DNA of 38,693 nucleotides, taken from a virus. Shown piece by piece: positions 25,295 to 35,377 of this stretch. The notes beneath the pieces were generated by a model that did not search any database, was not told the DNA's origin, and was given only the letters and a program-made list of their open reading frames with translations. The translations under genes were made by a program, and so were the position numbers. The stretch spans positions 1-38,693 of the IMG/VR virus record IMGVR_UViG_3300025679_000219; one strand, 5' to 3'. Positions within the stretch are counted from its first letter, which is position 1, and every line of letters starts with the position of its first letter.

Positions 25295-26284
25295 TCAGCT
25301 TCGGATTGTTGTGTCAATCCCCATTTTTTCAAACTCGTTTGTTGCCCAAGCCCCGGCTTCCTGGTAGCTCTCGATCTCGCTTTTTTTGACCCCTCCGGAG
25401 CGTCTTTTTTCGAGTCTCCACCGCTCGCCAGCCTTGTCCATCCAGTTCGCCAGGGTCGCCAAATTCGCCAGCCGTCCGTTTTTGGATCGAAAGAACTCGA
25501 CGCAGCCCTCAACCTGCTCCAAAATCACCGTGTCAGGTTCAAGTGCCGGAGGAATCCAGCCGCGCCAGGTAGCAATTTTCTTTTCCAACCTGAGCCGGTT
25601 AGGTTCGAAAAGGCGGTCAAAATCGGCTTTGAACCGGGGGACTTGGCAAATCGCCAGGTAGCAGTTTTTGGCAAGAGAGTCCTCAAACTCAGGTTCGAAA
25701 GGAAGCGGTCCAGGCTCAATCTCGGCTTTGGTCGGGCGAGGCGACTCAGAACTTTTCTCAGGAATTTTTTTTGGCGGCAACGGTTCCCCCCGGTCCCCTC
25801 TCCCTACTATTTCCTGTTTCCTATTTACTATTTCCTGTTTCCTATTTCCCATCATGAGAGTCTCATGAGGACCTCGTGAGGGTGTCGTGAGACTCTCATG
25901 AGGGTCTCGTGAATTTGGAGTCCAAACGGGGAAGGAATTTTCGTCGAATTCGGGCGGTTCGGGTAGATAACTTTTCGAGGGATGTTCAACCCGCTGATGC
26001 TTCAAAAAATTGACAATGAAAAGGTAATTATTTCCCTCAGCGCGGTATCGTAAAACCATCTGCTCGATTTCTAATTCCGTCAACCAATTATCGATTTCTA
26101 CGGGTGTCACATCGTCGTCAAATGGGAAAAGTTCACCGATAATTTTTCTGGGCAAATAGCGGCCGCGGCCACGATCATCGACATACGTCAGAAGACCGAG
26201 GAAAAACAGGCGAGAGTCTCGTGAGAGTCTCATGACACTCTCATGAGAGAAGAAATCCGGTTTGATTGTCCTAATTCTGGGCAT
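25295..26284 (-). CDS. Replication initiator-like protein carrying the origin
   Basis: A 329-residue protein whose first 100 residues match a recurrent phage initiator type: RIRTIKPDFFSHESVMRLS, then RLFFLGLLTYVDDRGRGRYLPRKI split by turns, then FPFDDDVT and YLFIVNFLKHQRVEHPSKS, a winged-helix DNA-binding domain. The middle (about 125-185) is low complexity, Glu/Arg/Pro-rich and encoded by the repeat clusters. The C-terminal part is helical and basic. The ATG shares a base with the preceding stop (TAATG). Like lambda O, it would bind repeats inside its own gene. Confidence 0.65.
   Translation of the reverse strand: MPRIRTIKPDFFSHESVMRLSRDSRLFFLGLLTYVDDRGRGRYLPRKIIGELFPFDDDVTPVEIDNWLTELEIEQMVLRYRAEGNNYLFIVNFLKHQRVEHPSKSYLPEPPEFDENSFPVWTPNSRDPHESLTTPSRGPHETLMMGNRKQEIVNRKQEIVGRGDRGEPLPPKKIPEKSSESPRPTKAEIEPGPLPFEPEFEDSLAKNCYLAICQVPRFKADFDRLFEPNRLRLEKKIATWRGWIPPALEPDTVILEQVEGCVEFFRSKNGRLANLATLANWMDKAGERWRLEKRRSGGVKKSEIESYQEAGAWATNEFEKMGIDTTIRS
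25802..25850 (-). repeat. Seven-base purine-rich tandem repeat
   Basis: On the coding strand seven adjoining heptamers of the form AGGAAAY or near it occupy 49 bases (25850-25802): GGGAAAT, AGGAAAC, AGGAAAT, AGTAAAT, AGGAAAC, AGGAAAT, AGTAGGG. Strand asymmetry and A-richness suit a DNA unwinding element beside the iterons. Confidence 0.7.
25847..25912 (-). repeat. Origin iterons, cluster A
   Basis: Six tandem 11-bp units on the coding strand, from 25912 to 25847: TCACGAGACCC, TCATGAGAGTC, TCACGACACCC, TCACGAGGTCC, TCATGAGACTC, TCATGATGGGA (last one degenerate). Since 11 is not a multiple of 3, the codon phase shifts with each unit, so selection is on DNA and not protein. The 11-bp period puts each site on one DNA face. 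Confidence 0.7.
26214..26246 (-). repeat. Origin iterons, cluster B
   Basis: Three more units of the same 11-bp motif on the coding strand: TCATGAGAGTG, TCATGAGACTC, TCACGAGACTC, near the start of the initiator gene, about 300 bp from cluster A. A site here would also allow the initiator to repress its own expression. Confidence 0.65.
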
Positions 26285-33960: not shown

Positions 33961-34682
33961 TCGTCTTCAAACCCATTGCATCCGGTTCATCCGGGTGCGC
34001 CTACGCGGTAGGGGAAAAGTTCTCCAATCCCCTGCTCCTCGATTGCGGGATCAGCCTGAGCCGTATCCAGAGCGGCATCGGGTTTGGTCTCGCAACCCTG
34101 GCCGGCTGCCTCCTAACCCACGCCCACGGAGACCACAGCTATGCGGCGAAAGACATCCTAGCCAGAGGGGTCAAAACCTGCGCAAGCTTCGAAACCATCG
34201 ACCAACTCGGCATCAAAAGTCCGTTCTGGCGTCCAGTCGAAGCGGGCAAATGCTACCAGTTGCAAAGCTGGAAAATTACGCCGTTCAATGCGGTTCACGA
34301 TTCACCCGGAACGCTGGGGTTTGTAATCGACTCCGCCGAGGGCTCAAGGCTCCTGTATCTCACAGATAGCGGTTATTCAAGCCACACGTTTAACGGACTT
34401 ACCCACATCGCCATCGAGTGCAATCACAGCGAGGAAATTTTGCGGCGAAACACAATGAGCGGAAACATCAATATGAGCCGGTTCTCGCGAACCACAACAG
34501 GGCATATGAGCCTAGAGCGGCTCACTGCCATGCTCAAAGCAAACGACCTTTCGCAGGTGCGCGAGATACACCTATTGCACCTGTCCGACGCGAATTCAGA
34601 TGAGGCGAAATTCAAAGAGACGATCCAGCGCGTGACCGGCAAGCCGGTCTATGTTGCGCAAAAAAATGAGGTGACGAAATGA
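33957..34682 (+). CDS. MBL-fold metallo-hydrolase, YycJ/WalJ-like
   Basis: A 241-residue beta-lactamase-fold hydrolase. SGSSGCAY near residue 9 and HAHGDH at 55-60 are the family's metal site, followed by His112, Asp135, His181 (TGHMS) and a final HLLHLSDANSD. This is the pattern of the YycJ/WalJ group, which contains 5'-to-3' exonucleases. The gene often accompanies RecT in phages, and with no other exonuclease here it may resect ends for RecT. GTG start in a GTGA overlap, GGAGG upstream. Confidence 0.75.
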   Translation: MIVFKPIASGSSGCAYAVGEKFSNPLLLDCGISLSRIQSGIGFGLATLAGCLLTHAHGDHSYAAKDILARGVKTCASFETIDQLGIKSPFWRPVEAGKCYQLQSWKITPFNAVHDSPGTLGFVIDSAEGSRLLYLTDSGYSSHTFNGLTHIAIECNHSEEILRRNTMSGNINMSRFSRTTTGHMSLERLTAMLKANDLSQVREIHLLHLSDANSDEAKFKETIQRVTGKPVYVAQKNEVTK

Positions 34683-35377
34683 TCAAAAATGAGATTAACT
34701 TAGAAGATACGCATTTTGGAAAAGGTGCGCACGAATCCCGAACACCTGGAGGCTGGTGCTTTATGGAGGCAGTTGCCTATGTCGCAGGTGAGCCCTGGTC
34801 GGATAGACCTGAATGCGTTTGCCCAACAATTGGGACGTTTCTGCGTCGATGGAACGATGACCTCAGGGATGATAACGCTCGTGACATTCTAAAACCGTAC
34901 CTGTACAGAGTGATTGGTTCGAACAAGGGCAAGGAGATTGCCGAGAAGCGGGTGTGGATGTGCCTGGATTGGCTGATCCGTGTAAGTATCCCTGCATGGC
35001 TAGAGCTAGCGGACCTGAATGAGGAGGCAAATCACCTAAAAACTGCAGAGCCTATTACAAATGCTGCATCTCTAAAAAAAGTGCAACCATCCCTAGTCTT
35101 TGACGCCTGGGATGCCGCTAGGGCTGCCGCTAGGGATGCCGCTAGGGATGCCGCTAGGGCTGCCGCTAGGGCTGCCGCTTGGGATGCCGCTTGGGATGCC
35201 GCTAGGGCTGCCGCTAGGGCTGCCGCTAGGGCTGCCGTTATGGCTGCCGCTAGGGCTGCCGCTTGGGATGCCGCTAGGGCTGCCGCTTGGATGGGCAAAG
35301 ATCTGGAGCCAACTGTTCGAATGTTGCAGAAATCAGCCCTTGATCTGCTGGATAGAATGCTGGAGGTGACGAAATGA
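34679..35377 (+). CDS. Cassette protein with alanine-arginine repeat helix
   Basis: A 232-residue protein. The first 130 residues are a globular domain (PGGWCFMEAVAYVAGEPW, then FLRRWNDDLRDD and LKPYLYRVIGSNKG). Residues 145-204 are fifteen tetrads of the form D/A-A-A-R/W, encoded by a 12-bp tandem repeat; this would be a long amphipathic Ala/Arg/Trp helix. The final 25 residues are a helical end. Similar Trp-Asp-Ala-Ala repeats occur in other phage proteins of unknown role. It ends in EVTK, see junction note. Confidence 0.6.
   Translation: MIKNEINLEDTHFGKGAHESRTPGGWCFMEAVAYVAGEPWSDRPECVCPTIGTFLRRWNDDLRDDNARDILKPYLYRVIGSNKGKEIAEKRVWMCLDWLIRVSIPAWLELADLNEEANHLKTAEPITNAASLKKVQPSLVFDAWDAARAAARDAARDAARAAARAAAWDAAWDAARAAARAAARAAVMAAARAAAWDAARAAAWMGKDLEPTVRMLQKSALDLLDRMLEVTK
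35111..35290 (+). repeat. 12-bp tandem repeat in the Ala/Arg gene
   Basis: Fifteen consecutive units of the form GMTGCCGCTWGG (GAT or GCT, then GCCGCT, then AGG or TGG), with one odd unit (GCTGCCGTTATG at 35231-35242). Copy number could change by slippage or recombination while the frame is kept. Variation is almost limited to two positions of each unit (D/A and R/W). Confidence 0.9.

Follow-up and report, generated by a model that had tools for sequence, protein, structure and literature searches.

Replication origins located within the initiator gene are a known kind of arrangement, represented by phage lambda O and by the staphylococcal RepA_N initiators. The lambda O protein binds iterons and AT-rich single-stranded DNA (ssDNA) (PMC7466680). 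Ori lambda has a central position within the initiator gene, and its iterons, which have an internal dyad, are followed by an asymmetric A-rich tract. The amino-terminal domain of pSK41 RepA (residues 1-120) binds four boxes inside rep, the linker (residues 121-199) is encoded by the origin and the carboxyl-terminal domain contacts the DnaG primase (PMC5703833). The present analysis concerns a candidate origin of this kind in the initiator gene of a temperate phage, whose complete virus record, IMGVR_UViG_3300025679_000219 (38,693 bp), was analysed and is called here the window. The gene carries two arrays of dyad iterons with an 11-bp pitch and a purine-rich tract. It is very probable that this region is the phage replication origin, in which the initiator would bind the dyad iterons and the adjacent tract would be opened or held.

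The closest experimental work is on the RepA prophage origins of mycobacteriophages, which are likened to the window system by description and not by family membership. The RepA initiator gene of phages Miko, Rachaly and Jeeves is necessary and sufficient for replication; its authors infer an origin in or beside repA, and repeated motifs were not found in the region that they examined (PMC7157519). Lambda-like repeats were proposed within the replication gene of Francisella phage KIRK (PMC7924643). This is a single case, with AT-rich repeats and a protein that has a Phg_2220_C domain, also likened by description. A search of the open-access literature, with subscription papers outside its scope, retrieved no description of the system of dyad iterons and tract reported here.

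Dyad iterons and purine-rich tract in the initiator gene

The gene and its repeats are located as follows:
25295..26284, minus strand: replication initiator gene, 329 aa (PHROG 2149, E 1.9e-31; PHROG 1408, E 1.2e-28)
25848..25913, minus strand: array A, six 11-bp dyad iterons, codons 125-146 (Tandem Repeats Finder; synonymous shuffles)
26215..26247, minus strand: array B, three 11-bp dyad units (TCATGAG, TCATGAG, TCACGAG), codons 13-24
25794..25849, minus strand: purine-rich tract of 7-bp GGAAAYA units, adjoining the last iteron on its 3' side in the coding sense

A preliminary description of the window had reported six tandem 11-bp units that break the codon phase of the initiator gene and are directly followed by seven 7-bp purine-rich units, a build likened to lambda O. 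All of these features were recovered. The units of array A, read on the coding (minus) strand, are TCACGAGACCC, TCATGAGAGTC, TCACGACACCC, TCACGAGGTCC, TCATGAGACTC and TCATGATGGGA, and their successive codon phases are 0, 2, 1, 0, 2 and 1. Rather than a plain direct repeat, each unit consists of the 8-bp dyad CTCAYGAG followed by NNN. The five pairs of TC-N2-GA spaced by 11 bp in the linker-coding sequence were reached in none of 5000 synonymous-codon shuffles (mean 0.28), which preserve the protein and its codon usage. A search for the motif, as had been proposed, gave 12 matches to its loose form TCAYGAGASYC in the window against 3.25 +/- 1.67 expected, all of them within arrays A and B of the initiator gene, and related genes have 11-bp dyads as well.

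Array B, found ~300 bp from array A and inside the sequence coding the winged-helix domain, had been missed in the preliminary description. Tandem Repeats Finder stretches it to 26212-26249. It is weak by itself, its two pairs being reached by 76 of 5000 synonymous shuffles, and strong only because its unit is common with array A. There is no indel in this region when compared to most relatives, so array B arose by substitution.

The purine-rich tract (56 bases), also detected by Tandem Repeats Finder, is made of seven 7-bp units and a weaker eighth one. Its 7-bp array score is 18, a value attained by none of 3000 synonymous shuffles (largest 14).

The layout of iterons followed by an asymmetric purine-rich element within the initiator gene thus resembles that of lambda, a likeness that holds across the family described below. 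The iterons occupy about codons 117-144 of lambda O, ahead of the A-rich tract, and codons 125-146 of the window gene. Lambda has four 18-bp iterons with a spacing of about 20-24 bp in one cluster, while the window has 8-bp dyads at an 11-bp pitch in two clusters, one of them within the sequence coding the DNA-binding domain. Features of pSK41 RepA with predicted counterparts in the window protein are a winged helix of ~120 residues, an origin-encoded linker with repeat boxes and a carboxyl-terminal domain for the host machinery. The likeness to RepA_N origins is by position only, the window iterons (codons 125-146) being within the code of linker residues 113-200. The pSK41 boxes are four, located in the central part of rep, and the cited review mentions neither a second array nor a GGA-rich tract.

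Conservation of the 11-bp dyads

Homologues of the initiator were gathered from phage records, viral contigs and genomes (one per species); they are the best tblastn matches to the window protein rather than a random sample. A scan of viral contigs with a single protein query found no relatives, and an alignment was required as query. The core sample has 100 initiator genes that are mutually less than 60% identical. The repeat pattern of the window gene is seen in more than 100 related phages and prophages of many bacterial groups, and the members placed in the tree include Actinomycetota, Pseudomonadota, Bacteroidota, Planctomycetota, Gemmatimonadota, Thermodesulfobacteriota, Myxococcota, Chloroflexota and Fibrobacterota.

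When the purine tract is masked, identical 6-mers recur at a lag of 11 in 73 of the 100 genes, compared to 23.6 in synonymous shuffles and to 14 of 83 neighbouring control genes. Lag 22 also peaks, as a harmonic, and no other lag behaves likewise. Pairs of TC-N3-GA dyads at exactly 11 bp number 153 (12.2 +/- 2.8 in shuffles) and those of TC-N2-GA dyads 55 (3.4 +/- 1.7), which gives 208 combined pairs against about 16. They cluster 150-450 bp from the start codon and are 94 times denser in the initiator gene (2.43 per kb) than in flanks of up to 2.5 kb on each side (0.026 per kb). Both the amino-terminal domain and the linker have arrays in 49 genes (6.75 in shuffles). The iteron unit varies from phage to phage, examples being CTCGCGAG, CTCATGAG, ACTCACTGAGT, CTCGACGAG and CTCCGGAG, yet the two arrays of one gene share their unit to an extent reached in 0 of 5000 permutations for both dyad classes. 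The arrays of some relatives are at codons 55-75, within the conserved domain.

Because the definition of the dyad was chosen after the data had been seen, a held-out set matters. It consists of 32 further non-redundant genes, without similarity to those sampled before and retrieved only through their tract by the (GGAACAG)3 reverse search described below. They have 62 pairs at 11 bp compared to 6.2 +/- 2.1 expected, with a flank dyad density of 0.027 per kb.

The class of the dyad is associated with residue 49 of the initiator. Genes of the core sample coding K or R at this position have 161 N3 and 3 N2 pairs, those with other residues 7 N3 and 54 N2 pairs. Shared ancestry accounts for much of this difference, and a role of residue 49 as specificity switch was rejected as not significant after phylogeny, because the tree offers only two supported independent contrasts, and five at most. 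The Rhodococcus prophage gene L114, which has K/R at residue 49 and N3 dyads yet belongs to the N2 clade, is a suggestive exception that bears on this coupling.

Two further observations concern the distribution and form of the arrays. In the Mediterranea member L131 a very long linker array of the 12-bp unit ATTCTACGATTG replaces the 11-bp iterons at codons ~185-215. Relatives of the initiator are also encoded on 42 plasmid records, such as Bifidobacterium NZ_CP065398 and NZ_KM406416 and small plasmids of Klebsiella and E. coli; plasmids or phage-plasmids may thus use the system too.

Conservation and polarity of the purine-rich tract

A 5-8-bp array exceeding all 60 synonymous shuffles is present in 71 of the 100 family genes, at a median position of codon 139. 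Its period is 5 bp in 33 of these genes, 7 bp in 19, 8 bp in 12 and 6 bp in 7. By a separate measure, 75 of 100 relatives have a coding-strand purine tract with at least three GGA. The place of the tract is fixed: in genes with linker iterons its start follows that of the last dyad by a median of 19 bp (middle half 13-19). Most tracts code for G, E, K and R, and their GGA triplets are spread over all three frames (159, 137 and 240). The tract is reversed, with CTGATTCC on the coding strand and a LIPDSLIPD-like peptide as its product, in members L016, L017, L018, L023, L078 and L139, which come from several phages of gammaproteobacteria and from one Vampirovibrionales contig.

The tract can be used to retrieve the family. 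There are 118 viral loci with (GGAACAG)3 under an open reading frame (ORF) of at least 80 codons, and 82 of them are in the initiator family, with the motif on the coding strand and mostly at codons 127-160. The GGAATCAG heptamer is a poor key for such a reverse search, most of its matches not being in long ORFs. Loci L305-L349 have at least three GGAATCAG heptamers in viral contigs, mostly without a covering ORF of at least 80 codons. The same heptamer tract is found at codon ~200 in L211 and L328, which code winged-helix replication-like proteins that are outside the family by their amino-terminal domain profile; several initiator families may thus share the tract. A G-quadruplex was rejected as the general meaning of the tract: the canonical pattern occurs in only 24 of the 75 tracts, and in the window no GGG run is found before the tract end.

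The initiator protein and its genome context

The protein is predicted to have three regions:
25949..26284, minus strand: winged-helix DNA-binding domain, residues 1-112 (AlphaFold2, pLDDT mostly above 90)
25685..25948, minus strand: disordered linker, residues 113-200, whose code holds array A and the tract (low pLDDT)
25298..25684, minus strand: helical carboxyl-terminal region, residues 201-329 (AlphaFold2 helices, low confidence)

PHROG 2149 and PHROG 1408 are both annotated 'replication initiation protein'. The match to their profiles covers the amino-terminal domain, and it is found in all 86 members of family set A3. A Pfam search of the 329-aa initiator matched no family, RepA_N (PF06970) included, and a search of the PDB by sequence gave nothing useful. 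The organization of the protein resembles that of lambda O and of the staphylococcal RepA_N initiators, and its predicted fold may do so as well. The best matches of the amino-terminal domain among solved structures are the equivalent domains of RepA-type plasmid initiators (4pql, 4pt7 and 5kbj; Z 8.0-7.1), a RepA_N-type protein ranking first with Z 8.0 over 85 residues. Many unrelated winged helices score Z 7, barely below it, so this match is a lead and not a proof of membership. No relation to the amino-terminal domain of lambda O was detected by sequence profile, and the fold matches to phage O proteins of a viral library are weak (E 4e-5 to 4e-4).

The carboxyl-terminal region presumably contacts the helicase, its loader or the primase. 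Among family relatives it belongs to the DnaT, DnaB_2 or Phg_2220_C domains. In nine members, L010, L014 and one from a Streptomyces phage included, it is homologous to the carboxyl-terminal domain of lambda O, five of them with E values of about 1e-11 to 1e-10; the window initiator (P0001) is not among the members with this match. Because these domains differ between members, the amino-terminal domain with its in-gene sites looks like a module joined to varied ends that recruit helicase or primase. An HNH nuclease domain takes the place of the helicase-loader-like one in members matching PHROG 5718, and Pfam HNH was identified in two members.

Other genes of this temperate phage in the window code for an integrase, a CI-like repressor that has a peptidase S24 domain, and RecT and SbcC-like proteins. 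A GC-skew switch at the site, which the preliminary description had suggested looking for, was not seen. The skew apparently tracks gene direction, with a cumulative curve that declines until about 34 kb, and it was discarded as an origin marker for lack of a switch at 25.8 kb. A different repeat is found on the plus strand at 35109-35287, where ~15 copies of the 12-bp unit GGGCTGCCGCTA form an in-frame four-residue repeat of ORF 34679-35377.

Alternative explanations

Tandem short dyads are typical of operators and centromeres too. The arrays could accordingly be an operator or a parS-like centromere, bound by a repressor, a ParB-like protein or an autorepressing initiator, with replication starting elsewhere. 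Array B, just downstream of the start codon, is well placed for autorepression, and a hairpin of RNA or ssDNA can form over array A (z -4.35), though the dyads alone account for it. This explanation is nevertheless improbable: the sites are confined almost entirely to the initiator coding sequence, the unit that differs between phages is common to both arrays of one gene, and a partition site is unnecessary to a phage that carries an integrase. Autoregulation could coexist with origin function.

The disorder of the linker in the model, the range of tract periods from 5 to 8 bp and the presence of similar heptamers outside genes would also fit neutral minisatellites, repeats expanded by slippage in an unconstrained linker without function at the DNA level. 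There is little to recommend this possibility, since the conserved domain holds array B and, in relatives, the arrays at codons 55-75, array B arose by substitution, and both the 11-bp pitch of the iterons in every group and the position of the tract are constant. Furthermore, third bases are better conserved in the iterons of the amino-terminal domain than elsewhere (0.60 vs 0.48, p 0.009, 44 disjoint pairs), a difference that is somewhat biased because the units were picked in one member per pair. It is hardly conceivable that the DNA pattern is a by-product of a selected amino-acid repeat forming a charged flexible linker, even if G, E, K and R are encoded by most tracts. The pitch of the iterons is not a multiple of three, nor are most periods of the tract; GGA occurs in all three frames, and synonymous shuffles fail to reproduce the tract in 71 of 100 genes. 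The reversed tract of several proteobacterial phages, which encodes LIPDSLIPD instead, speaks against it as well.

Several observations weigh against an origin embedded in the initiator gene. In the literature search, experiments on binding, footprints or replication were not found for any family member. Pfam and PHROG annotation revealed no helicase or loader gene beside the initiator gene of the window, and the GC skew has no extremum at the site. In the core sample 15 of the 100 genes have no dyad array by the criterion used, and a clear coding-strand tract is missing in about a quarter of relatives. Viral contigs have GGA-type heptamers also outside genes of the initiator family. The A+T content of the tract is only slightly raised (family mean GC 0.53 compared to 0.585 for the genes); a sequence-specific single-strand element is therefore possible.

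A model for initiation

The arrays, their conservation at the DNA level across the family, the sharing of the unit between both arrays and the fixed place of the tract strongly suggest that the region functions as an origin. The initiator itself is the likely iteron binder, its specific binding to the repeats being indirectly supported by the shared unit and by the association with residue 49. The amino-terminal winged-helix domain would bind the CTCAYGAG dyads of array A and of array B upstream of it, and their 11-bp pitch would place all of them on one face of the helix. The two clusters may then be brought together or bent, and the nucleoprotein complex so formed would strain or open the neighbouring tract, which is GGA-rich and asymmetric between the strands. 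The strand exposed in this way would take up the replicative helicase via the carboxyl-terminal domain of the initiator. Its place and polarity make the tract the probable site of strand opening, a role that is less certain than the origin function of the region. Array B might be a second binding cluster, a site of autoregulation or both.

A more extended proposal, which is tentative and may well prove wrong, is that of one very widespread family with sites at two in-gene places, where residue 49 sets the choice between the 8-bp dyad CTC-N2-GAG and the 9-bp dyad CTC-N3-GAG and the GGA-phased tract is a sequence-specific landing element on a single strand. Protein and site would then evolve in the same bases, one of the two places being inside the code of the DNA-binding domain. 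The tract, variable in period (5 to 8 bp) and strand, would not be a plain AT-rich unwinding element.

Implications for temperate phages

The initiator matched 469 phage records, 243 of Mycobacterium and 131 of Gordonia phages among them, where its usual annotation is hypothetical or replication initiation protein. If the proposed origin is correct, sequence alone would suffice to read the origins of these temperate phages and prophages, which form a very common class. The family would also supply ready-made pairs of initiator and site with which to study how winged-helix proteins choose their DNA, together with an origin element beside those sites whose role in strand opening would be testable.
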